Positions 12,281 to 38,102 of a stretch of DNA of 42,664 nucleotides are shown here, piece by piece (the first letter of the stretch is position 1; each line of letters opens with the position of its first letter). Source of the stretch: an uncultured Bacilli bacterium (GTDB lineage Bacteria > Bacillota_I > Bacilli_A > RFN20 > CAG-631). The stretch covers positions 1 through 42,664 of the forward strand of contig CANQTM010000012.1 in NCBI GenBank assembly GCA_947626825.1, given 5' to 3'. Both the position numbers and the translations under genes were made by a program. Under the pieces are notes generated by a model. That model had not been told where the DNA came from, ran no database searches, and worked only from the letters and a program-made list of their open reading frames with translations.

Positions 12281-12625
12281 TTGAGGAGGCCTTTACCACA
12301 GCATTTATTAATTAGTTAGATATCGCTAGACGATTTATTTTGAACAAGTTTACAAGAAATAAATGTTATGGAATCATACAGTCACTAATAATCTATAAAG
12401 GTATTGTTATGTTTTATGTTGGCATTGATATTGCTAAGCACAAACAATATTTTGTAATTATCAACGACGATGGGTTAGTTATTGTTCATCCAAAAACGAT
12501 AAAAAACTCTGAAGAATGTTTAAATAAACTATTGTCTTTTTTGCTTTTTCATGATCGTTCTCAAAAAATCAAAATTGGGCTTGAAGCAATTGTTCGTTAT
12601 GTTTTAAACCTTAAGGCCTCCTCAA
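12281..12625 (+). mobile_element. Internally deleted IS110/IS1111-type element bounded by a 13-bp inverted repeat
   Basis: A perfect inverted repeat, TTGAGGAGGCCTT (12281-12293) and AAGGCCTCCTCAA (12613-12625), encloses 345 bp that begins with the 5' part of an IS110-family transposase gene. The right repeat follows directly after about 66 transposase codons. IS1111-group elements carry short subterminal inverted repeats like these, so this looks like an insertion sequence that lost most of its transposase by internal deletion. It would need a full copy elsewhere to move. Confidence 0.65.
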
Positions 12626-12642
12626 GAAATATTATAAAATAA
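12409..12642 (+). pseudogene. Truncated IS110-family transposase (N-terminal DEDD fragment)
   Basis: From the ATG at 12409 the protein begins YVGIDIAKHKQYFVII, the first beta strands and first catalytic Asp (in GIDIAK) of the RuvC-like DEDD domain of IS110 transposases, and continues to IGLEAIVRYVLNL, which aligns with the family motif GLEATGHY and carries the second acidic residue. After about 66 residues it enters the right inverted repeat and stops at 12642. Full transposases are about 400 residues with a C-terminal Ser-containing domain, which is absent. The TGH to IVR change also suggests decay. Confidence 0.8.
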
Positions 12643-24657: not shown

Positions 24658-26895
24658 CTAACGATGACAATCTATACAAATAATTTTTTTGTTTTGTTCT
24701 TTAGCAATTTTAATACAATCATATGTTCCACCACGATTAATAGAATTACCATTATTATCAACAAGTGGCATTTCTTTGCCATCCCAAAGAGCAATTAGTA
24801 TTTGACATTTTTCAATAAGATATTTACTTGCTTCTAAATATGTAAATTGTGGATCAGATATTACTTTACAAACAACACATTGTGCAAGTAAATGACGCAT
24901 TTTTAATTCGTCATCTTTAGTAAATGGAAGGCCATGAAAAATAACATCTTGATGTGTTGATTCAATATATTGCTCAATTGGCATTGGTATATTTGCTTTA
25001 ACAGATAGGCCAAGTTCTAAAGCAACTTCAGTTATTAATTGATCGGCTCCATAAGCTAAACATGTTCTAACAACAACAGTGTTACTTTGACTATATTTTT
25101 CTAAGATGGTTCTAATTTTTTTCTTTAATTTATTTTTCTTTTCTTTAAAAAATCTATGACCGGTTCCAGCAATTTCTAAAATTTTATCATTACTTTCTTT
25201 ATAATTATAAATCTTTATATTACTATCAAATCTATTTAATAGTTTTAACATATTAGTAACCATTAGTTCATCTTTAGATTTTTCTTCACTTGATAATAAT
25301 TCATAAGGAACAAGATCTTTATGTATTTTTTTATTATTTCTTTCTTTATTAGTTTTATAATCAGTACCATATTTCCATCCTAAAGCTAGTTTTTCTTTGA
25401 CCCAACGAACATGTTCTTCACGACATAGAAATTCGATATTATTTTTATAATTTGTTTTTATTTGATTAAAATCATCTACTATAGGATAATCTAAATCTTT
25501 TCTACTAAATAAACAATTAATTTGTTCAAGTTTATATGCATATGATTTAGCTTGTTCGATATTTGAAAGTTTAAATTCAAGGTCAAGATTTCCAAAGTCT
25601 TCACTAATATATTCATTTGTTAATGATAAACAATGTTCATTAAAACTTGAATGAATCTTTTTAGCTAGTTCACAAATACTTATAAAATTATCATCTGAAC
25701 CTAGTGTTTGTGCTCTTTTTTTCTTTTTAATTTCTTTTGTAATAATATTTATTTTTAAAGATGAACTAATAAAACTTTTTAAATTATTTAAAAATGTACC
25801 ATCATGAAATTCAAGATAATTTTTATTGTATTTATTTTCAATAAGATAAGAATCAAATGTATAACATAAATTTAAATTGTTATCAGAAATTTCAAGTTGA
25901 AAATCATAAGCTAAAGGTGCTTTTTTACTAATTTTACCATAGGCATAACGATCAAAGCATTGTAGTTCATCACATAATATTAATAAATATGATAATGGAT
26001 GCTCATTAATATCAATACTATGGCTATTTAGAATATCATATTTATTTAAACTATTATGAAGTAGAATAGCAGTCAAAGCATCTAAATATTGTTGATCGAA
26101 ATCATTTTTTTGTTTTGAAATAAACATTTTTGCCAAAATAATGGCACTAAAATAAGCGTGATCTAAAAATTTTGGTTGTTTAATAATACGTGTTGTTAGT
26201 AAACGTGTAATATCTTTTATATCATACCCTTCTCTTAAATGTATACCATAGGCTAATAAATCATTATATGTTTTAAATTTAATAGCATTAGGAAGATATT
26301 TTTCTAAAAAAGAAAGATTATTTTTTTCAATTTTTATAAATTTTTTAAAATTTCCATAAGAAACATAAGGGTTATTTTTATTATCTTTACCCCATAAATC
26401 TTGAATATATATTTTTATTTGTTCATGAACAAGTTCAAAAGGATAACCAATATCATGAAATAATGAAACCAATCCCCAAAATTTTAAAAAATTAAAAGTG
26501 GCATTTGTATTGTTTTTTAATTTATAAAATGAAAGATAAGATTTCCTAAAAGAACTATCAAAAGCATAAATGACTAGTCCTATGGCAAAGACATAAACAG
26601 AATGCGAATAATGATCACGATGTTTGGCTAACAATTCACCTGAATGATATTCATGATCTGATAATGTTTCAAGTAATATTTTAGTATTATCGTAACCTTG
26701 TCCAAAAAGATTGAAGATTTCTGAAAAACAAAAATAAACTGAAAAAGCATCATCTTTTTTTCCAGATTGTAAAAACTTTTTTAATGATAATTGTAAACAT
26801 AATATATCAGTTTTTGATATTTTTTGTTTTATATTATCACTCATATTAAGCATCTTAAAAAAATTATCTACTAATTCATAAAGTCTTTTCATCAT
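24658..26895 (-). CDS. HD hydrolase - RyR - SLOG multidomain protein, putative nucleotide-signal sensor/effector
   Basis: A 745-residue protein with three recognisable modules. Residues about 85-330 are an HD-type metal-hydrolase domain (HRDHYSHSV at 92-100, HD 147-148 in LFHDIGYP, later LLHN and LCDELQ). Residues about 485-555 are a prokaryotic RyR domain: EEHVRWVKEKLALGWKYG, then HKDLVPYELLSSEEKSKDE. Residues about 571-745 are a SLOG-superfamily Rossmann domain: AGTGHRFF, CLAYGADQLITEVALELG, IPMPIEQYIE, LIALWDGKE and the GGTYD loop. RyR and SLOG domains are proposed ligand-binding modules in nucleotide-centric conflict systems, and HD domains hydrolyse nucleotides or cyclic dinucleotides. 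The start is ATG 26895 with AGGGG at 26907-26903. The gene is divergent from a TIR gene, suggesting a shared signal. The role as sensor or effector is inferred. Confidence 0.8.
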   Translation of the reverse strand: MMKRLYELVDNFFKMLNMSDNIKQKISKTDILCLQLSLKKFLQSGKKDDAFSVYFCFSEIFNLFGQGYDNTKILLETLSDHEYHSGELLAKHRDHYSHSVYVFAIGLVIYAFDSSFRKSYLSFYKLKNNTNATFNFLKFWGLVSLFHDIGYPFELVHEQIKIYIQDLWGKDNKNNPYVSYGNFKKFIKIEKNNLSFLEKYLPNAIKFKTYNDLLAYGIHLREGYDIKDITRLLTTRIIKQPKFLDHAYFSAIILAKMFISKQKNDFDQQYLDALTAILLHNSLNKYDILNSHSIDINEHPLSYLLILCDELQCFDRYAYGKISKKAPLAYDFQLEISDNNLNLCYTFDSYLIENKYNKNYLEFHDGTFLNNLKSFISSSLKINIITKEIKKKKRAQTLGSDDNFISICELAKKIHSSFNEHCLSLTNEYISEDFGNLDLEFKLSNIEQAKSYAYKLEQINCLFSRKDLDYPIVDDFNQIKTNYKNNIEFLCREEHVRWVKEKLALGWKYGTDYKTNKERNNKKIHKDLVPYELLSSEEKSKDELMVTNMLKLLNRFDSNIKIYNYKESNDKILEIAGTGHRFFKEKKNKLKKKIRTILEKYSQSNTVVVRTCLAYGADQLITEVALELGLSVKANIPMPIEQYIESTHQDVIFHGLPFTKDDELKMRHLLAQCVVCKVISDPQFTYLEASKYLIEKCQILIALWDGKEMPLVDNNGNSINRGGTYDCIKIAKEQNKKIICIDCHR

Positions 26896-26910
26896 ATGAA
26901 GTCCCCTTTG

Positions 26911-26933
26911 AAATTAAAAAAATGTTTTAATTT
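26911..26933. promoter_or_regulatory. Leader stem-loop of the HD-RyR-SLOG gene
   Basis: AAATTAAAA (26911-26919) and TTTTAATTT (26925-26933) form a 9-bp AT stem just upstream of the ribosome site. Confidence 0.35.
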
Positions 26934-26953
26934 TTGCTAATTATGATGAAAAA

Positions 26954-26982
26954 AGTATACTTTTAATTATTTTCTTTGTCAA
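26954..26982 (-). promoter_or_regulatory. Consensus promoter of the HD-RyR-SLOG gene
   Basis: On the minus strand a perfect TTGACA (26982-26977) and TATACT (26959-26954) are exactly 17 bp apart. It is one of the two best promoter matches in the window. Confidence 0.85.
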
Positions 26983-26987
26983 GTAAG

Positions 26988-27005
26988 ATAATTGTTTACA
27001 ATTAT
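26988..27005. promoter_or_regulatory. Perfect 18-bp palindrome in the divergent control region (candidate operator)
   Basis: ATAATTGT-TT-ACAATTAT has 8-bp perfect arms and lies 6 bp upstream of the minus-strand -35. It is the natural place for a dimeric regulator acting on the HD-RyR-SLOG promoter. Confidence 0.5.
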
Positions 27006-27031
27006 GTTTATTTTAGCAAAGTAAATAAATC

Positions 27032-27051
27032 ATTTCAATAATTTTTGAAAT
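27032..27051. promoter_or_regulatory. Second inverted repeat, upstream of the TIR promoter
   Basis: ATTTCAA (27032-27038) and TTGAAAT (27045-27051) are perfect arms with a 6-bp centre, ending 8 bp before the TIR-gene -35. Confidence 0.4.
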
Positions 27052-27059
27052 AAAAAATA

Positions 27060-27088
27060 TTTACATATGTTCTTAAAAATAATATAAT
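27060..27088 (+). promoter_or_regulatory. Promoter of the TIR-led operon
   Basis: TTTACA (27060-27065) and TATAAT (27083-27088) are 17 bp apart, 38 bp before the chosen ATG. Confidence 0.8.
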
Positions 27089-27126
27089 TTTGTTGAGAAA
27101 TGATGAAAATTGTAGGAGAGTTTATT

Positions 27127-28233
27127 ATGGGAACACCACTAACTATGTTTGATAAAGTTAGTTTTGATTTAAAAAATGATAATTTTTTATTTGTCAGTTA
27201 TTCACATTTAGATGATACAGCAGTTTATGAAATCTTAAATAGTTTATATGATAGTCATGTCAATTATTGGTATGATACAAAACTACGTGTTGGTGATGAA
27301 TGGGATAATGTTGTCAATAATATTATTAATAACATCCATTGTGTTGGAACTCTTTTCTTTTTAAGCAAAAATTATATCAAAAGTGATTCTTGTAAAAAAG
27401 AATATGAGACAATTAAAAAATTAAATCATTTAGTCATTCCTATTTTATTAGAAGGAGAAAATGTTAATAGTTTATATAATAATTTAAATAAAAATGAAAT
27501 TGCTATAGATAAAACTGCTGAAGATTTTTTATTTAAAGATAATGTTTTATTTTATAAATATCAAAAAGATTCAATAGATAAAATATTAATTACTTTGCGA
27601 GAAAAGACTAAAAGAGTTATTAATGATAAAAGTGGCTTAATTCAAATATTACTTGAAAAGAAAATAACATATAATCAAAACAATTTTTATCTTTTAAATT
27701 TTGGCTTATTTCCCCAAAATAATCCACTTACTTTAAATCGCTATGCCAATGATAGAATCATTGAAGATGAATATTCATTAAAATATTATGGCTGTAAAAA
27801 AGATAACAAATTTTATCCTTTTGAACAAATAGCGTGGAAAATATTAGATGTTGATGAACAAGATGTTTATTTAATTTCAAATAATTGTTTTTTAGCTGCT
27901 TATGGTAATAAAAATGATATTTTAAAGGTTTTAAATGATTTTTATAATGTAGCTTTTAATGATATTGAAAAAGAAAATATTTCTTTAAGTTATTTAGATT
28001 ATCAAACATATCAAAAATATTATGATCAAATTGCCAATCAAAATTATGAATTTAGTAAATTGTATCTTACTAATTATCCATATTTTAAAAATATTTTTTG
28101 GATTGTTAAAGATGATAAAGTTTTATTAATGAATAATGATTTAACTAATATTGTTGATATTGTTAATAATTATGAAGATGTTATAGCTGGCATATTACCA
28201 ATAATCAAAATAAAAATAAATTACATAAAGTGA
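27127..28233 (+). CDS. TIR domain protein with C-terminal DUF6273-like domain
   Basis: The start at 27127 (368 residues) is set by AGGAG at 27113-27117; an earlier in-frame ATG at 27100 has no site. Residues about 18-135 are a TIR domain: FLFVSYSHLDD (strand A and box 1), WYDTKLRVGDEW (BB loop), LFFLSKNYIKSDSCKKEYE with Glu 92 in the place of the catalytic glutamate of NAD-cleaving TIRs, and LVIPILLEG. Residues about 190-365 look like a DUF6273-type beta domain (PFEQIAWKILDVD, DVYLISNNCF, LTNYPYF). Bacterial TIR domains hydrolyse NAD or make cyclic ADP-ribose signals. It is the first gene of the island operon. Enzymatic activity is likely but unproven. Confidence 0.85.
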   Translation: MGTPLTMFDKVSFDLKNDNFLFVSYSHLDDTAVYEILNSLYDSHVNYWYDTKLRVGDEWDNVVNNIINNIHCVGTLFFLSKNYIKSDSCKKEYETIKKLNHLVIPILLEGENVNSLYNNLNKNEIAIDKTAEDFLFKDNVLFYKYQKDSIDKILITLREKTKRVINDKSGLIQILLEKKITYNQNNFYLLNFGLFPQNNPLTLNRYANDRIIEDEYSLKYYGCKKDNKFYPFEQIAWKILDVDEQDVYLISNNCFLAAYGNKNDILKVLNDFYNVAFNDIEKENISLSYLDYQTYQKYYDQIANQNYEFSKLYLTNYPYFKNIFWIVKDDKVLLMNNDLTNIVDIVNNYEDVIAGILPIIKIKINYIK

Positions 28234-28261
28234 TTTAGATATAAAGAAAGGGATGGATATT

Positions 28262-30394
28262 ATGAGCGTTGTAATGGATAAAAATGTATTAAATGATATT
28301 TTGGCAGATGTAAATGAAAATAAAGATTCTATTTTTAAAACATATAAGCCAAAGGGTGAAATTGCTGATGCAATTTTAAACAAGTTTCTAGAAAGAGGTA
28401 AAAAAAGAGGCCAAAAATTGTTTTATTTATCTGATACTAATAAAAAATCAGGTTTATTAAGTGTAGCCCAAGGATTGGTATCATTAACTCTTATTTTACA
28501 AATGGAAGATTTAAAATCTGAAAATATCAATAATGATTGTAAAATTGCACTTGGTCAAAATATTCTTGAAATGTTGCGTTTAATTGGTTATGAAGATGAA
28601 AATAGTGAACTTCATTTTTATGCGACACCATTTGTTGATGAAAAAGAACAAAATATTAATGATGACGATGAAGAAGATGATGATGAAACTATTAATTATT
28701 ATGATTATGACTATGTTGATGCTATTTGTAAAACAATGCAAGCCATTATTGAATGTCGTGAATTAATATCTATTGCCATTGATGATAATAATGAAATTGG
28801 CATTTATAGTATAATGCAATCAATTAATAATGATGTTAAAAATCAAAATATATACAACAAAACTTTTGTTAATCAATTAAAATCAGATAAGGATTTAGTT
28901 AATGTTTTAGAAAATTGTTTAACAAAAAGTATTGATAGATTATTAAAATTAAAGATTAACAATGTAAGTGATATTAAAAATGTTGTTATTGGTAATGTTA
29001 GTTATGATATTAATTGTATTGGTTGGAACTTTACAAATCAAAATTATAGTTCTAATGCCTTAACACCATCATTATTTTTCACTTATTGTTGTACACAAGC
29101 CTACATGACTTTTTATAAAAATTTCGTAGATGCACTTAATCATTGGCGAAATAATATTCCAATTGAAGAAAATAATTTAAAATTAGTAAGAGATTATAAC
29201 TACATTATTAAATATCAAAAACTAATTGATGAGTTTAGAAATGCAGTTCGATCTTGTGGACTATATCTTGATGAAAAAATTAAGAATTTAGATTTACGTA
29301 GTAAATTTTTAGGTCTTGATTATTCCGTTGTTGATATGAATGAAATTAAAAATAGCACTACTAATAATGCTTTATTTAATTCAATATTTGCTGTTGCTAT
29401 TTTAATTGGTAGTGGTACATCAGATCTTTATGAAGAAGCTAAAGCTATTGAAAATAGACGTTATTTTGAATGGCTACAATCAATCATGCAAAATATTTAT
29501 GAATCTTATTGTGATTTATTATCAATTAGAAAAGATTATGCTATTTCACAATATATATTAAACTTCAATGAAATGTTTCCAGCTGATTTAGCAGAATTTG
29601 CAAATTATTTAAGAAAACAAAGAATACAAGTTTTATCAATTGTTCCTACAATGACTCGTGTTTATAACATGGTTAGTACATATTTAATTAATTATCCTCA
29701 AAAACAAATGGGCGATTATTTAATTTTATTAATGAATAATCGTCGACTTGATAATAATGGCAATCCTGAATGGTCTTGGGATCGTGATAACTATGATGTT
29801 AATATAAATACTATTTATATTGGTGCTATTTATGATTTTTATTTATATTATGAAAATTTTGAACGTCAATATATTGAAACTGATAGAACAATTTCAGAAC
29901 TTAACCAAAAAATTCGTGATAAGGAATTAGAAGGTGAAGAAAAACTATCTTTACAAGCGCAAAAACATTTAAGTGAAATTGCTAAACTAAATGAAGAGAA
30001 AAAACAAATAAATGATGAAAAAGAAAATACACCTTTAAATTTAGCTATTAGAAATTTAATTCACGAAGAAATGTCCAAAGAATTATATTCATCTTTATAT
30101 AAAATATTTGATGAAGTTAGTGAATATTTATGTCAAAAAGATAAACCATTTATGTATGGCTTAGATAACAGTGAATCAAAAGAAAGCATTTTTGCAAATA
30201 AATTGGCTTTAATGTTGTTTAGTTATTTTAGATCTACTTTAGTTAAAGATGTAGCAGAAGTTAAAAAAGAAGCTCCTTATATAGATGATAAAGTATATCA
30301 ATCAATTATTAGAAAATTATGTTATGAATTAGTTAAAAATGTAGAGAATTTATCTAAAGAAATTAGAAAAGAAATCAATACAAATGGTAACTAA
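28262..30394 (+). CDS. Large helical protein of unknown function, second gene of the island operon
   Basis: I take the ATG at 28262 (710 residues), because the site AAAGGG at about 28248-28253 is too close to the in-frame ATG at 28253. No known domain is recognised. Visible features: a helical N-terminal part with SGLLSVAQGLVSLTLILQ (about 60-77), an acidic block of Asp/Glu at about 131-142, a GWNFTN/ALTPSLFFTYCC segment that recalls alpha-toroid proteins without proving it, a YPQKQMGDYLILLMN segment, and a charged coiled coil near 545-595. No signal peptide or membrane helix. It lies 28 bp after the TIR gene and 21 bp before the ATPase, so it is probably a core subunit of the system. Confidence 0.75.
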   Translation: MSVVMDKNVLNDILADVNENKDSIFKTYKPKGEIADAILNKFLERGKKRGQKLFYLSDTNKKSGLLSVAQGLVSLTLILQMEDLKSENINNDCKIALGQNILEMLRLIGYEDENSELHFYATPFVDEKEQNINDDDEEDDDETINYYDYDYVDAICKTMQAIIECRELISIAIDDNNEIGIYSIMQSINNDVKNQNIYNKTFVNQLKSDKDLVNVLENCLTKSIDRLLKLKINNVSDIKNVVIGNVSYDINCIGWNFTNQNYSSNALTPSLFFTYCCTQAYMTFYKNFVDALNHWRNNIPIEENNLKLVRDYNYIIKYQKLIDEFRNAVRSCGLYLDEKIKNLDLRSKFLGLDYSVVDMNEIKNSTTNNALFNSIFAVAILIGSGTSDLYEEAKAIENRRYFEWLQSIMQNIYESYCDLLSIRKDYAISQYILNFNEMFPADLAEFANYLRKQRIQVLSIVPTMTRVYNMVSTYLINYPQKQMGDYLILLMNNRRLDNNGNPEWSWDRDNYDVNINTIYIGAIYDFYLYYENFERQYIETDRTISELNQKIRDKELEGEEKLSLQAQKHLSEIAKLNEEKKQINDEKENTPLNLAIRNLIHEEMSKELYSSLYKIFDEVSEYLCQKDKPFMYGLDNSESKESIFANKLALMLFSYFRSTLVKDVAEVKKEAPYIDDKVYQSIIRKLCYELVKNVENLSKEIRKEINTNGN

Positions 30395-30415
30395 GAAAGG
30401 AAGAATTAAAACAAT

Positions 30416-31363
30416 ATGGATAAAGAATTATTAACAATTTCCTATTTTTCATACAAAGGTGGTTCTGGTAGAAGTTCACTTGCTTATAATACAATTCCTT
30501 TTTTAGTTGAAGAATTAAATGCTACTCCTGAACATCCTCTTATCATTGTTGATTTAGATGTTGACAGTGCTGGTTTATCATTTTTACTTGCTTCTGATCT
30601 TTTAGATAAAAATGATAAAATTCAATATATAACAACTAATGATCTTGTAGATTTACATAAGAAAAATTTATTCGATGAATATGAATATATATATGCTCAA
30701 CATGATAGTTTTAGCCAAATGCCATTAAAAAGAATTTTTTATCCAATTGGTAATGCTTTTGGCTTTGAAGGAGTAGAAGGTAATGAAGCAATTTTATTTA
30801 TACCTGCAAATCCTAAAGATAATGTTAGTAAGTTTGATGAATCAGGTAATGATCGCATTGAAAAATTTATTGAGGCAATGAGAAACTATAATGCTGCTGC
30901 AATTATTTTTGATATGCCTTCAGGTGATCAACTTCTTGGTAAAATTGTCATGCAAGAATGTAATAAAGTCGTTTTGTGTTTAAGAATTACTTATCAACAT
31001 AGAATGGGTACTAAAGAATATTTAAAAAGAAATTTAAATAGTATTGAAGGAATAACATTTATTCCAGTACCAAATGCTGTTCCTCAAGAAAAAATTCTCA
31101 TTAATGATCGTATAGTAGATTTTGATGTCATTAAAGAAGATATTCGTAACTCATTGACTGAAGTTATTAGCAATCAAACAGGAAACTATTGTGATTTTGG
31201 TATGTTTGATGATGGCTATTTTGGTGTTAATGAAGTTCAAAGATTTAAATTTTATGAAGGTATTTTATTTAGAGATGTTAAAAAGAATTTAAAATTATCT
31301 GATGATGAAATGAAGGCTTATGACGCTTATCAAAGAGTCGCTAGAATAATTGCAAAGGACTAA
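30416..31363 (+). CDS. Deviant Walker ATPase of the KGGxGRS (SIMIBI/ParA-like) class
   Basis: A 315-residue P-loop protein. The nucleotide motif KGGSGRSS (14-21) keeps the signature Lys 14 of MinD/ParA ATPases but has Arg 19 where the usual GK-T/S lysine would be. The strand PLIIVDLDVDSAGLSFLL (Walker A-prime) and AAIIFDMPSGDQ (Walker B) follow. The opening ISYFSYKGGSGRS is the FxSYKGGxGRS signature of a P-loop family often encoded beside TIR and TPR proteins in bacterial signalling and conflict loci. A membrane or partner switch driven by ATP-dependent dimerisation is inferred. Ribosome site AAGGAAG; the next gene starts 3 bp after the stop. Confidence 0.82.
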   Translation: MDKELLTISYFSYKGGSGRSSLAYNTIPFLVEELNATPEHPLIIVDLDVDSAGLSFLLASDLLDKNDKIQYITTNDLVDLHKKNLFDEYEYIYAQHDSFSQMPLKRIFYPIGNAFGFEGVEGNEAILFIPANPKDNVSKFDESGNDRIEKFIEAMRNYNAAAIIFDMPSGDQLLGKIVMQECNKVVLCLRITYQHRMGTKEYLKRNLNSIEGITFIPVPNAVPQEKILINDRIVDFDVIKEDIRNSLTEVISNQTGNYCDFGMFDDGYFGVNEVQRFKFYEGILFRDVKKNLKLSDDEMKAYDAYQRVARIIAKD

Positions 31364-31366
31364 AAT

Positions 31367-33754
31367 ATGGATACAATTACTATTAATGAAAAACCAACTC
31401 TTACTTTAGAAGAGACTATTGTTGAAGTAAATAAAATACCTGATGTCGATGTTAGAAATTTTATCTTTATGCATGATCAAAATAGATTACGTTTTTTACA
31501 AAAATATCGTAATTTAAATGCTTATTTAAACAATTTATTAATTATTTCTTTTATGTATGTTTATGGGAAATATTTATATTGGAAAAAAAATAAATCAAAA
31601 AATCTAAAAACTAATAATGATTTAAAAAAGTCATCTAATTTTATGAGAATCATCACTTCTTTTGAAAAATTATATTATGACTTTAATCTTTCGTATGAGT
31701 TTATAGAAAATATGTTAAATGATATTCAAATACTATTAATAAGTAATGAATCAACTAAGTTAATGGAAGAACTTGATATTTATGGTGATTTTAAAACATC
31801 TAAATATTTTTCAACTATTATTAGAGTTGCCAAATTAGGTCGAATGTCAATTAGAAATCAAGAAACTAATATTGGTTATTTACGTTTCCTTTTAGTTAAG
31901 TCTTTAGAAATGATGCCATTTTTATTAAATATTGATATTGAACATAGCAATATTAATCTTAATTTTGTCAATGGCGATAATCAAACTAATTTTCAAAAAT
32001 TAGTAGTAACAAAAACTGAAATATCATCATATGATTTTGATATGAATTTTGCTTTTTTACATATTAAAGAAAGTGAACAATATTATTATTTAGAAACAAT
32101 TACTCAAAGAGAAATCAAAAATTTTGGTTCATCAGAAGAATATTTTGTTTTAACTTATGCTGCAATTGGCAAATTTGCTGAAAGTGATGAAGAAATAAAT
32201 GGGCGAAATCTATATGTTTTAGTTCGTGGTGAGGGCTCTAAAGTTGTTGAAGATATAAAAAACCTTTATATTTTCGAAGATAAGGATGGTGTAGACGGCT
32301 TTCGCCATAAAATATTTCCCTTTATAAATAGCAGTCGTATTGTTGCAACTAATCTAATTAAAGATTTCAATGCTATTAATTTTAGATATATTCGTATTTT
32401 AGCATTAGCAATTTCAGATGTTTTAGATGATAGTGGTAAACGTTATCTACATCAAATGTATTCTATTAGAAATGAATATAAAGCGATGTTTGTTACTAAT
32501 TTAGATGAAATAAATAAAGATAATTATTTAGAAAATGCTGATGATGAAGAAAGTGGTTATGGTTGGGATGTTGTTATTGCTACTTTATTAGTTGAAGAAA
32601 GTGCCACTAAACTTTTACAAGAATTATTTAAATATCGTCCTGAATATTTTGTTAAAATCATTAATAATTTGCAATATCGTTTTCGAGAAGAAGATTTTGA
32701 TGTTAATCAAATGATTCAAATTGCTAAACAACAAATTGATGAAGAAATTAATAATATTAAACTTAGAATGTATGGATCAAGAAATGGCTTGTCATTTAGA
32801 AAAATGGTTGTTAATGAAAACCAAGTTCGTGCAAAAATTCAAGCACTAGTTATTGTTAAAAAATTATCAGAATTAACATATGCTAATGAAAATGTTGATA
32901 TTACAACTAAATTTCCATTATCTATAAGTTCAAGAATTAAAATTGTTGATGAGATAGAGAATATGTATGATGAAGTTGGAAATATAGATACTTTAAAAAA
33001 TGGTTTACAAGTTTTAGTATGTCAAACTTTAAAAACGCTTTATTGTTTTTATCATGCTTTATTTGGCTATGCTAAAGAAAAATTGAAATTTGAAAAAGAA
33101 TCAGTCTTTAATATTTTAACTGCTAACGATGTCAATCTTTCTCAAAAAAATGCAAATTTAGCTTTTGATGAAATCATGAAAGAAAAAGTACATGAAATTA
33201 GTAATATTGCGAAAGATGATGTGCAATCAATTATGGTTAAAATTAAAGAACTTTGTAAAATTTGTGCCTTTCCAGATAATTACAATTCTTATAATGAATT
33301 ATTAAAGAAGATGTTAGGACGTGAATTTTTATTAAATTATGGTAACATTGCTTGTTTTGAAGACTGTTTTGAAGAACCTATTTATTCAAAATCAACCTTT
33401 GTAGCCTTAACTGAAAAAATTAAAAATGCCTTTTTGTATTTAAAAGATGGACATGTGGCTGGAACTAATACTTATGATGGAGTTATTTTCCCATATGTAG
33501 CATTTTTGGATTATACATCTAATACTAGAGATGGTTATGAAATAAATCATTTTTCAGTTGTTTCTAATAATAATGATGAAAAAGATATTAGAGTTATTTC
33601 AGAATATAAATATATTCCAAATCAAAGTTATTATTGTATTCCGAATAGATTTAGAAGCAATGATGAATTAAAATTGTGGATTGAACCAATTATAATTAAT
33701 TATAAATTTGTTGAAAGTGAAATGAATAATAATGACTCAAATAAAGAAAAATAA
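31367..33754 (+). CDS. 795-residue protein of unknown function, fourth gene of the island operon
   Basis: It has a good start (AAAGGACT then ATG, 31367) and no family I can name. The N-terminal ~240 residues are helical (DVRNFIFMHDQNRLRFLQKY). The middle (about 215-350) looks alpha/beta, with FAFLHIKESEQYYYLETI and GRNLYVLVRGEGSKVVEDI. A helical stretch (about 430-700) follows, and the last ~100 residues look beta-rich (DGVIFPYVAFLDYTS, YYCIPNRFRSNDELKLWI). No membrane segment or classical catalytic motif is visible. It starts 3 bp after the ATPase and overlaps the GNAT gene by 23 bp. It could be the recogniser or the effector of the system. Confidence 0.75.
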   Translation: MDTITINEKPTLTLEETIVEVNKIPDVDVRNFIFMHDQNRLRFLQKYRNLNAYLNNLLIISFMYVYGKYLYWKKNKSKNLKTNNDLKKSSNFMRIITSFEKLYYDFNLSYEFIENMLNDIQILLISNESTKLMEELDIYGDFKTSKYFSTIIRVAKLGRMSIRNQETNIGYLRFLLVKSLEMMPFLLNIDIEHSNINLNFVNGDNQTNFQKLVVTKTEISSYDFDMNFAFLHIKESEQYYYLETITQREIKNFGSSEEYFVLTYAAIGKFAESDEEINGRNLYVLVRGEGSKVVEDIKNLYIFEDKDGVDGFRHKIFPFINSSRIVATNLIKDFNAINFRYIRILALAISDVLDDSGKRYLHQMYSIRNEYKAMFVTNLDEINKDNYLENADDEESGYGWDVVIATLLVEESATKLLQELFKYRPEYFVKIINNLQYRFREEDFDVNQMIQIAKQQIDEEINNIKLRMYGSRNGLSFRKMVVNENQVRAKIQALVIVKKLSELTYANENVDITTKFPLSISSRIKIVDEIENMYDEVGNIDTLKNGLQVLVCQTLKTLYCFYHALFGYAKEKLKFEKESVFNILTANDVNLSQKNANLAFDEIMKEKVHEISNIAKDDVQSIMVKIKELCKICAFPDNYNSYNELLKKMLGREFLLNYGNIACFEDCFEEPIYSKSTFVALTEKIKNAFLYLKDGHVAGTNTYDGVIFPYVAFLDYTSNTRDGYEINHFSVVSNNNDEKDIRVISEYKYIPNQSYYCIPNRFRSNDELKLWIEPIIINYKFVESEMNNNDSNKEK

Positions 33755-34349
33755 TTTGCAATATATTTTTAGAAAAATCAAAAAAAGTGATGATTTAAAT
33801 CGAATTATGGAATTAATCATCAAAGCTGATCCTTATACTTATATTGGTTTATTTGGTAGCAAAGAAAATGCTTATAAAATTTTACCCTTTTTAATTAGTG
33901 ATAGTTCATCAATTTTTTATCGTGAAAACTATTATTGTTGTGAATATAATCGTGAAATCATTGGTATATGTTCTTTATTTTTACATGAGGTTCAATGGAA
34001 TAAACTTGTTTTATTAAAAGCTTTTGCCTTAGCTAACGTTGATTTTCCTGACACATTTACTCAAGCATATGATTCTTTTTCAAGAGAATTTAATGAAGAA
34101 TTCAATGTTGGTGCTACCACATGCCAAGTTAGTGTCAAAGAAGAATTTAGAAATAAAGGAGTGGCCACATTTATTTTAGAAAACATTTTTAAAATGTATG
34201 AGGCACCAATTCAACTTTATGTAAATGAAAATAATAAAGTAGCTATTAAACTATATGAAAAATTTGGCTTTAAAATAATTGGTGAATATGAAGATTATGC
34301 TGGGTTAAATCAACCAACAATAAAAGTTTATAAAATGTATAAAGGTTAA
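33732..34349 (+). CDS. GNAT-family N-acetyltransferase, last gene of the island operon
   Basis: A 205-residue protein with the GNAT fold: central strand REIIGICSLFLHEVQW, the acetyl-CoA loop in VSVKEEFRNKGVATFILENI (pattern R/Q-x-x-G-x-A), and the closing YVNENNKVAIKLYEKFGF followed by YKMYKG. It overlaps the 795-aa gene by 23 bp and ends at the operon terminator, so it is cotranscribed. Its substrate is unknown; it may be part of the system (protein or small-molecule acetylation) or a passenger. Confidence 0.85.
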   Translation: MTQIKKNNLQYIFRKIKKSDDLNRIMELIIKADPYTYIGLFGSKENAYKILPFLISDSSSIFYRENYYCCEYNREIIGICSLFLHEVQWNKLVLLKAFALANVDFPDTFTQAYDSFSREFNEEFNVGATTCQVSVKEEFRNKGVATFILENIFKMYEAPIQLYVNENNKVAIKLYEKFGFKIIGEYEDYAGLNQPTIKVYKMYKG

Positions 34350-36004: not shown

Positions 36005-36583
36005 GTGAAAATAGTTTTAGCTACTAATAATGCTCATAAAGTTAGTGAATATAAAGATATTTTAAAAGAATTTGATATACAAGTATTAACATTAAATGAT
36101 TTAAATATTAATTGTAATCCATTAGAAAATGGTCAAACATTTAAAGAAAATTCTTTAATAAAGGCCAAAGAAATAGCTAAATTTACTGATTTAACTATTT
36201 TAAGTGATGATTCAGGATTAACAATAAATTCATTACCTGATATTTTAGGCGTTTATTCTTCAAGATTTTTAGATGGCAAAAGTTATTATGAAAAATGTCA
36301 AGAAATCATTAAACTTTTAGAAAATAAACCAAGGGATGCTTTTTTTAGTTGTGTTATAACATTATATAATTTTAAAGGCAATATTTATCAATTTGAAGGA
36401 CAATGCTTTGGAAATATAGCAAATAAATACCAAGGAGAAAATGGTTTTGGTTATGATCCAATATTTATTCCAAATGGCTATAAACAAACATTTGCTATGT
36501 TAAGTAGTAAACAAAAAAGTGAAATTTCACATAGAGGAATTGCTTGTAAAAAATTAATTAATTTTCTTAAAGAAAATTGTTAA
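36005..36583 (+). CDS. rdgB: dITP/XTP pyrophosphatase (RdgB/HAM1)
   Basis: A 192-residue house-cleaning nucleotide hydrolase. It has the N-terminal LATNNAHKVSEY, the catalytic loop LSDDSGLTINSLPDILGVYS (about 71-90), GENGFGYDPIFIP (about 150-162) and SHRG (about 178). It removes ITP, dITP and XTP from the pool. The start is GTG at 36005, chosen because AAGGAA lies just upstream and the family begins at this point. Confidence 0.94.
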   Translation: MKIVLATNNAHKVSEYKDILKEFDIQVLTLNDLNINCNPLENGQTFKENSLIKAKEIAKFTDLTILSDDSGLTINSLPDILGVYSSRFLDGKSYYEKCQEIIKLLENKPRDAFFSCVITLYNFKGNIYQFEGQCFGNIANKYQGENGFGYDPIFIPNGYKQTFAMLSSKQKSEISHRGIACKKLINFLKENC

Positions 36584-36608
36584 CTTTTTTAAATTGCTAG
36601 TTTATAAT
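36580..36608 (+). promoter_or_regulatory. Promoter of the mgtE leader
   Basis: TTAACT (36580-36585, overlapping the rdgB stop) and TATAAT (36603-36608) are 17 bp apart. Transcription would start about 36615, about 135 nt before the mgtE ATG. Confidence 0.65.
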
Positions 36609-36633
36609 AAAGACAAAGGAGATGATTGATTTT

Positions 36634-36708
36634 ATGGATATGTCAATACCACTCTATTATATAAAAATCACTAAACGTAGTAATGATATGTTCATTGAAA
36701 TCAATTAA
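36634..36708 (+). CDS. 24-codon leader peptide upstream of mgtE
   Basis: A short ORF starting MDMSIPLYYI and ending with TAA at 36706-36708, with a good ribosome site (AAAGGAGA, 36615-36622). It is too short to be a usual protein and lies between the promoter and mgtE. Codons 14-17 (Lys-Arg-Ser-Asn) contain ACGTAGTAA, which can pair with the 5' arm of the hairpin that traps the mgtE start. A regulatory leader peptide is inferred. It does not look like MgtL of enterobacteria. Confidence 0.5.
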   Translation: MDMSIPLYYIKITKRSNDMFIEIN

Positions 36709-36750
36709 CATATTTTTTGCTACGTAATATTAAAAGGAGAAGCGTAGCAA
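36675..36750 (+). promoter_or_regulatory. Two mutually exclusive RNA helices controlling the mgtE start
   Basis: TTGCTACG (36717-36724) can pair with CGTAGCAA (36743-36750), an 8-bp helix that puts the Shine-Dalgarno AAAAGGAG (36732-36739) in its loop and the A of the start codon in its stem. The same 5' arm, as TTGCTACGT (36717-36725), can instead pair with ACGTAGTAA (36675-36683) inside the leader ORF, 9 bp with one G-U. The two forms exclude each other, the layout of a translational switch. No M-box consensus is seen. Confidence 0.6.
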
Positions 36751-38102
36751 TGGAAAACTATGAAATAAAAGATTTAATAATTAATAAAAAATCACGTGAA
36801 TTTCGAAATGCTATTGAAGATTTAGAATATGTTGATATCGCTTTAATAATTGAAGATCTAGATGATGAATATCAAGTGTTAGCTTTTAGGATGTTACCTA
36901 AAAATTGTGCATCCGATGTTTTTGCATATTTACCACTTGAAACTCAAGAAAAAATTATTTCTAACATTACTGATAAAGAAATAAATAATATTATTGAAGA
37001 TTTATATGTTGATGATGCAGTTGATTTACTTGATGAACTTCCTGCAAATGTTGTATCAAAAATATTATCTAATGCTAAACCTGAAACAAGAAGTTTATTA
37101 AATCAATTTCTAAAATATGCTGAAGATAGTGCTGGTTCAGTAATGACTTGTGAATATATTTCAATTAAAAAAGAATATACTGTTGAACAAGCTATTAAAA
37201 AAATTCGTCGTACAGGAACTGATAAAGAAGGAATTTATACTTGTTATGTTATTGATGCATCTCGTCACTTAGAAGGTGTTATTTCTTTAAAAACTTTATT
37301 ATTATCTGAAGATGATCAAATTGTTTCTGATTTAATGGATACAAATTTTATATGTTGTAATACCACTGATGAAAGAGAAAGCGTTACAAAATTATTACAA
37401 AAATATGATTTACTTGCTTTACCAGTAGTTGATAATGAAAAACGTTTAGTTGGTATTATTACAATTGATGATGCCGTTGATGTTATTCAAGAAGAAGCAG
37501 AAGAAGACTTTGAAAAGATGGCTGCAATGTTACCTTCTAATAAACCATATTTAGATATGAATGTGTTTACATTATTTAAAAATCGTATTTTCTGGTTACT
37601 AATCTTAATGATAACTGGAATGATTACAGGAGCAATTTTAGAAAAATTTGAAGCGGCAATTCAAACTTTACCTCTTTTGGTTTCATTTTTACCAATGCTT
37701 AATGATACAGGGGGAAATTGTGGTTCACAAGCAGCTACAATGTGTATTCGTGGTTTAACAACAGGTGAAGTTACACCAAAACAATGGCTTAAAGTATGGT
37801 GGAAAGAATTTCGAGTTTCAATTTTAATTTCTATTTCATTAGCATTATTTAATTTTGCAAGAATTATGATTTTTCAAAGAAGTATGGATGTAAATGATAG
37901 ATTAAAATATGCTTTAGTTGTTTGTTTAACTATGATTTTAACAATAATGTTAGCTAAGTCAATTGGTGCTTTATTACCATTATTTGCTAAAAAAATTCAT
38001 TTAGATCCTGCTGTATGTGCTGCACCAATGATTACTACAATTGTTGATTGTTGTACAATATTAATTTATTTTGGTATTGCTTGTAGTGTCTTTGCTATCT
38101 AA
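36750..38102 (+). CDS. mgtE: Magnesium transporter MgtE
   Basis: The start is ATG 36750 with AAAAGGAG at 36732-36739; an upstream in-frame TTG at 36717 lies in the hairpin. The 450-residue protein has the MgtE N domain (about 15-125, superhelical, with DDAVDLLDELP), two CBS domains (about 130-250, SAGSVMTCEYISI and GIITIDDAVDVI) that bind Mg2+ and gate the pore, and five membrane helices (about 280-450) with PLLVSFLPMLNDTGGNCGSQ, the conserved pore segment. It imports Mg2+. Translation is probably controlled by the leader described above. Confidence 0.95.
   Translation: MENYEIKDLIINKKSREFRNAIEDLEYVDIALIIEDLDDEYQVLAFRMLPKNCASDVFAYLPLETQEKIISNITDKEINNIIEDLYVDDAVDLLDELPANVVSKILSNAKPETRSLLNQFLKYAEDSAGSVMTCEYISIKKEYTVEQAIKKIRRTGTDKEGIYTCYVIDASRHLEGVISLKTLLLSEDDQIVSDLMDTNFICCNTTDERESVTKLLQKYDLLALPVVDNEKRLVGIITIDDAVDVIQEEAEEDFEKMAAMLPSNKPYLDMNVFTLFKNRIFWLLILMITGMITGAILEKFEAAIQTLPLLVSFLPMLNDTGGNCGSQAATMCIRGLTTGEVTPKQWLKVWWKEFRVSILISISLALFNFARIMIFQRSMDVNDRLKYALVVCLTMILTIMLAKSIGALLPLFAKKIHLDPAVCAAPMITTIVDCCTILIYFGIACSVFAI

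Follow-up and report, generated by a model that had tools for sequence, protein, structure and literature searches.

A probable leader-peptide switch in front of the Mg2+ transporter gene mgtE in an uncultured Bacilli bacterium

The mgtE gene of this uncultured Bacilli bacterium is preceded by a short, Shine-Dalgarno (SD)-led open reading frame whose RNA is predicted to adopt two mutually exclusive folds, and we think it probable that the arrangement is a leader-peptide switch acting on mgtE, a Bacillota counterpart of the mgtQ-mgtB and mgtL-mgtA leaders of Salmonella. The ORF, the helices and their conservation, the position-dependent opening of the mgtE start and the conservation of an acidic peptide N terminus are computational results, and the acidic residues conserved at the beginning of the peptides suggest a sensing principle. 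An earlier, sequence-only reading of the same DNA, which had proposed an attenuation-like switch built on a leader ORF and two competing helices, is right in kind, but it is incomplete, and it is wrong about the state of the empty leader. What is surprising is the breadth of the leader class: the layout recurs across many Gram-positive relatives, which points to a form of low-Mg2+ sensing that would be widespread and apparently undescribed.

The mgtE locus and its leader ORF

The window (the whole 42,664-nucleotide stretch of DNA analyzed here) contains the only mgtE copy of the source genome, at positions 36750 to 38102 (this and all other features given below lie on the + strand). The gene encodes a 450-aa Mg2+ transporter/channel with MgtE_N, CBS, and MgtE domains (Pfam). 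Its upstream neighbor is an XTP-pyrophosphatase-like gene of the Ham1 family (Pfam) with its 3' end at 36583, and between the two lie, in order, a promoter-like site, the SD of the leader, a 24-codon ORF, and the SD of mgtE. The promoter-like site (TTAACT - 17 nt - TATAAT; 36580 to 36608) has 10 of 12 consensus matches, of a kind common in this AT-rich DNA, and stands directly upstream of the leader SD, as does a TATAAT in the relatives L003 and L004.

The leader SD, AAAGGAG (36615 to 36621), is separated from the leader ATG by 12 nt, a long but still usable spacing, and the ORF itself comprises 24 codons plus TAA (MDMSIPLYYIKITKRSNDMFIEIN; 36634 to 36708). Apart from that long spacing, the leader ORF and ribosome site are as the sequence-only reading had described them, and the mgtE SD, AAAAGGAG (36732 to 36739), likewise lies in the loop of the helix that closes the mgtE start. 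The window thus has an SD-led short ORF immediately upstream of an Mg2+ transporter gene, the layout that marks leaders of the MgtL/MgtQ kind, and such SD-led leaders recur in relatives. Among these leaders the window peptide is a weak case, with few early acidic or proline residues: Asp2 is its one early acidic residue, accompanied by Pro at codon 6 (Met-Asp-x-x-x-Pro).

Elsewhere in the window, the region from 24658 to 34349 encodes a RyR-domain protein, a TIR-domain protein that weakly matches ThsB, two large proteins with no assigned family, another that weakly matches PDC-M28B, and a GNAT protein, and is a possible defense-like island. A short ORF at 12340 to 12642 resembles, by eye, the start of an IS110-type transposase.

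Four RNA arms and two exclusive folds

The leader RNA folds much more strongly than its dinucleotide shuffles (z = -4.85; 0/200), and the predicted folds divide it into four arms. Arm A (36623 to 36652) covers the leader start region and pairs with arm B; arm B (36675 to 36707), in the 3' part of the leader ORF, pairs with A through 36677 to 36707 or, alternatively, with arm C; arm C (36707 to 36725), which contains TTTTTTGCTACG, pairs with B or, through 36709 to 36725, with D; and arm D (36742 to 36762) lies over the mgtE start codon and the first codons of the gene. The strongest helix is A:B, by which the leader start itself is sealed. Free RNA is predicted to fold into A:B plus C:D, a combination that excludes the alternative helix B:C (36675 to 36725). 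Two exclusive foldings of the attenuator type, 1:2 plus 3:4 against 2:3, are predicted here, the downstream start being hidden by 3:4, and the pairings on which they depend are conserved.

The sequence-only reading had recognized one arm, TTGCTACG (36717 to 36724), with two partners: CGTAGCAA (36743 to 36750), which ends on the first base (36750) of the mgtE ATG, and ACGTAGTAA (36675 to 36683), which corresponds to leader codons 14 to 17. All of these are present, the arm is indeed shared, as part of arm C, and the proposed ACGTAGTAA:TTGCTACGT pairing is included in B:C; what was missed is A:B, and with it the four-arm arrangement. Because the upstream partner is part of the 3' side of A:B, folding places the empty leader in the closed form, with C:D over the mgtE start, and not in the open form that had been claimed for it. 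Free-energy folding did recover both forms, with the free RNA in the closed one. The two-partner model by itself, which leaves A:B out of account and so has the empty leader in the wrong state, was dropped.

Because the four leaders of the window's own family are too diverged to align, covariation was assessed by partner swapping over a wider set; a genus-level MAFFT alignment was set aside, since it misaligned the leaders. In 27 thinned loci, native partners paired better than swapped ones for A:B (-16.5 versus -10.4 kcal/mol), C:D (-9.8 versus -7.5 kcal/mol), and B:C (-15.0 versus -7.9 kcal/mol), with 0/20000 permutations in each case. When swapping was confined to one genus, whose loci differ little in base composition, native partners again did better (A:B, 0; C:D, 116; and B:C, 1 of 20000 permutations), although kinship among the loci means that these permutation values, like the z values for locus sets given below, overstate independence. 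The genus mate (L002/L031) has the same four-arm topology in unrelated sequence, with an opening cost of 10.8 kcal/mol when free and 3.6 kcal/mol with a ribosome held early.

Ribosome position and access to the mgtE start

Opening the mgtE start costs 9.5 kcal/mol in free RNA and 3.1 kcal/mol when the leader start is masked. This gain of 6.4 was matched by none of 200 shuffles that preserved both start regions, for which the mean gain was 0.2. With the P site at codons 1 to 8, the opening cost drops by 5 to 6 kcal/mol; the effect at codon 9 is weak, and from codon 10 onward there is no gain. The unoccupied leader is accordingly modeled as closed: only a ribosome held early, at codons 1 to 8, is predicted to open mgtE, and beyond about codon 9 the start is predicted to stay closed. 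The earlier proposal that a ribosome in the leader favors the closed form agrees with folding for later positions; at codons 1 to 8 the predicted effect is the reverse. Release of a downstream start by a ribosome on region 1, as in an attenuator, is found here by folding prediction alone.

Similar behavior was seen in 39 leader loci. Compared with shuffles, the mgtE start (Stouffer z = 10) and the leader start (Stouffer z = 11) are both more tightly closed, and masking the first leader codons gives a larger opening of mgtE, with a gain in 33 of the loci (Stouffer z = 12); the loci were picked after their leaders had been recognized, so that these statistics are supportive rather than exact. 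At L032, L041, L054, and L067, masking gives no gain. Averaged over the set, the gain is about +3 kcal/mol at codons 1 to 3, has dropped to 0 by codon 7, and takes negative values at codon 8 and beyond. Because the mean gain is limited to early codons (about 1 to 5), the positions at which a ribosome opens mgtE coincide with the conserved acidic, Pro, and Gly codons described below.

In the mechanism that we propose, the default fold, A:B plus C:D, would seal both the leader start and the mgtE start, keeping mgtE off. A ribosome beginning the leader would displace arm A, and if it were slowed or destabilized at the first codons, A would remain masked, B:C would form, D would be freed, and mgtE would be translated. 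A ribosome that moved past about codon 9 and finished the leader would allow A:B and C:D to re-form, returning mgtE to the off state. The sensed condition would most likely be low Mg2+: under Mg2+ scarcity, ribosomes are destabilized by nascent chains that begin with acidic residues, above all in combination with proline, as in the EPDP motif of MgtL (PMC11282234). We infer translation of the leader in vivo, stalling or drop-off on it, the dependence on Mg2+, and the direction of control. Drop-off instead of pausing would uncover arm A once more; the mgtQ model has the same difficulty, which could be resolved by several rounds of initiation or by a ribosome that pauses first and then drops off.

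The sign of control would be reversed if B:C worked as an intrinsic terminator and A:B as its antiterminator, such that a ribosome at the leader start favored termination. A hairpin at 36686 to 36713, which lies inside B:C ahead of a T run and would be present in the "open" state, is ambiguous: it is predicted only when leader codons 1 to 5 are masked, and relatives do carry clear terminators (L004, L058, L088, and Mg2+ ATPase loci). It is nevertheless a doubtful candidate, being AT-rich and only -6.3 kcal/mol strong, with its T run inside the longer B:C stem; a terminator scan demanding at least three G-C pairs picked neither this hairpin nor any other site in the window leader, and the B:C stem of the genus mate L002 has no clear T-run terminator. 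Moreover, in L088 (mgtE) and in L156 and L158 (Mg2+ ATPase), folding predicts a terminator that is weakened by an early-held ribosome and recovers when the ribosome is further on, the opposite of what this alternative says. We regard termination at B:C as unlikely and favor the translational switch. Terminators can, however, stand in for or accompany the start-codon hairpin in relatives (L058, L061, L088). By folding, that of L061 (mgtE) forms only once the ribosome has moved on, that of L058 is affected at codon 1 only, and those of L003 and L004 are unresponsive to early ribosome positions.

Leader peptides in relatives

The window's family was sampled by four genomes, namely the window's own, its genus mate (Erysipelotrichaceae bacterium SUG151), and L003 and L004 from a second genus, and all four have an SD-led leader beginning Met-Asp (MDMSIP, MDVNGS, MDEFGR, and MDEFGR, with the genus mate's continuing as MDVNGSS). 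The wider set of mgtE loci covers many genera of the class and Granulicatella balaenopterae. With leaders picked by SD and ATG alone, SD-led short ORFs were found in 52 of 87 nonredundant mgtE upstream regions and in 8 of 99 control genes, which were other genes in the same loci (p = 1e-14); the leader ORF belongs to mgtE rather than to genes generally. The remaining 35 regions have no picked leader, and at least L041 and L050, which fall outside the rule, do carry a leader, whose SD is shorter or lies at another distance from the start codon.

Residue 2 is D or E in 32 of the 52 leaders, and positions 2 to 8 contain a mean of 1.58 acidic residues, whereas reading the same DNA in its two alternative frames gives means of 0.19 and 0.25. 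Starts such as MDSYP, MDGSP, MDERP, and MDNPGG are acidic, often with Pro or Gly nearby. The N termini vary synonymously (GAT/GAC, GAG/GAA, CCG/CCT/CCA, AGA/AGG) and by Asp/Glu exchange, while the C-terminal halves diverge, and selection therefore acts on the peptide start. Covariation and conservation of the leader ORF in relatives had been named by the sequence-only reading as tests of its proposal; both came out in its favor, and its attenuation-like switch is supported in this respect, with the leader ORF and all three pairings conserved. Ser or Cys at positions 6 to 8 and the nucleotide string CGAAGT (or CCGAGT) recur among the leaders of L003, L004, L042, L046, L061, L067, L072, and L133, which may reflect a peptide or an RNA feature.

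Pro and Asp codons close to the leader start would also be expected if the leader sensed, through tRNA charging, a shortage of one of these or another amino acid, and a connection with proline codons has been reported for mgtP and mgtL of Salmonella (PMC8092293 and references in PMC11282234). The leaders have no run of a single residue, however, and what they share is acidity (D/E) with Pro or Gly nearby rather than any one codon, which makes charging-dependent attenuation quite unlikely.

As the sequence-only reading had held, the M-box is absent: neither the M-box (RF00380) nor any other Rfam family matches the window leader, and the M-box covariance model found nothing above its gathering score in the family members L003, L004, and L031, while it scored 102.9 bits upstream of mgtE in the relative L033, which served as the positive control. 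That M-box, and the strong conserved structure upstream of mgtE, might suggest a metabolite or ion riboswitch, such as a new Mg2+ aptamer, that contains the ORF by chance. Helix and loop sequences differ between genera, however, and conservation is confined to the SD, the start codon, and acidic codons, the last of which vary synonymously. With no Rfam match and no conserved aptamer core apparent, this very unlikely reading was dropped. That the leader is a constitutive translational enhancer or insulator, or a chance ORF, with no sensing and a hairpin that just sets low mgtE expression, is scarcely credible, since, although the window peptide is only weakly acidic, conservation of the ORF, its N-terminal residues, and the three exclusive helices goes far beyond what chance would give.

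Variants of output and context

Leaders similar to those of mgtE precede several genes for P-type Mg2+ ATPases, with starts such as MEEPQSRF, MEDSQSRY, MSPLSSFNDEVP, and MKKPDGER. SD-led acidic leaders occur at the ATPase loci L156, L158, L159, L169, L170, and L172-L174; some have a terminator immediately upstream of the gene, and several are predicted by folding to open early, like the mgtE leaders. Several of the genomes with ATPase leaders have an in-frame TGA within the ATPase gene, as in Mollicutes.

In f20 genomes the leader runs over the start of mgtE and has DNDVPEP or DNEASEP. At L057, L060, L096-L100, and L103-L106, where either motif lies near the leader start, the mgtE start codon is overlapped in a different frame, a second layout that suggests direct interference rather than a hairpin switch. 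Acidic leaders (MENAKPGG, MDEGHER) also lie between an M-box and mgtE (L083 and L092) or between an M-box-like sequence and mgtE (L094 and L101), possibly forming two Mg2+ sensors in series.

These variants raise the prospect of widespread, independently evolved ribosome-based Mg2+ sensors in Bacillota and Mollicutes, in which acidic peptides in front of mgtE and P-type Mg2+ ATPase genes use interchangeable outputs (start-codon hairpin, intrinsic terminator, or overlapping ORF) and partly replace, partly double the M-box; on this larger claim our judgment is evenly balanced. We found no earlier description of such mgtE leaders in the openly licensed literature. If the claim is true, an unrelated transporter would be governed by a common peptide signature and four-arm logic across many Bacillota, which would amount to a general, convergent principle, mgtE control would be explained where the M-box is absent, and dozens of natural leader variants would be available for testing which nascent chains destabilize ribosomes.

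Comparison with known systems

M-box aptamers control many mgtE genes, and the window leader resembles the M-box riboswitch (RF00380) in being a Mg2+-relevant 5' control of mgtE in Bacillota; it differs in that a ribosome here would take the place of a ligand-binding RNA. The four-arm topology is that of the ermC-type attenuators, in which 1:2 plus 3:4 compete with 2:3 and stalling in the leader frees the downstream start, but erm leaders sense macrolides, and both the peptide motif and the gene are different. A few leaders in Enterobacteria are known to use the ribosome itself to gauge Mg2+. An "mgtE motif" has been reported from Thioalkalivibrio only (PMC11109978).

The enterobacterial mgtL leader (EPDP; MgtL/EttA) shares with the mgtE leaders as a set, though less clearly with the window peptide (Asp2 and Pro6), an acidic, proline-containing start upstream of an Mg2+ transporter gene; expression at mgtL is decided by the behavior of the ribosome at early codons (PMC11282234), as it would be here. 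MgtL works by way of drop-off and Rho-dependent termination, whereas the predicted output here is access to the mgtE start, or an intrinsic terminator in some relatives. A close parallel is Salmonella mgtQ, an ORF of 8 codons with a strong SD, Asp2, and Glu5, whose acidic codons are required if mgtB is to be translated at low Mg2+; its stem-loops 1:2 and 3:4 are incompatible with 2:3, 3:4 hides the ribosome site of the transporter gene, and occupation of region 1 by a ribosome exposes that site (PMC8092293). The mgtE leaders have similar elements: a short ORF with its own SD, early acidic codons (Asp2 alone in the window), and four-arm exclusion in which a ribosome on region 1 is predicted to open the transporter start. 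The window leader differs from mgtQ, which lies between mgtC and mgtB in Enterobacteria and Brucella, in being a 24-codon 5' leader in Bacillota. The downstream gene, mgtE, belongs to another family than mgtB and mgtA, and the leaders have no apparent homology.
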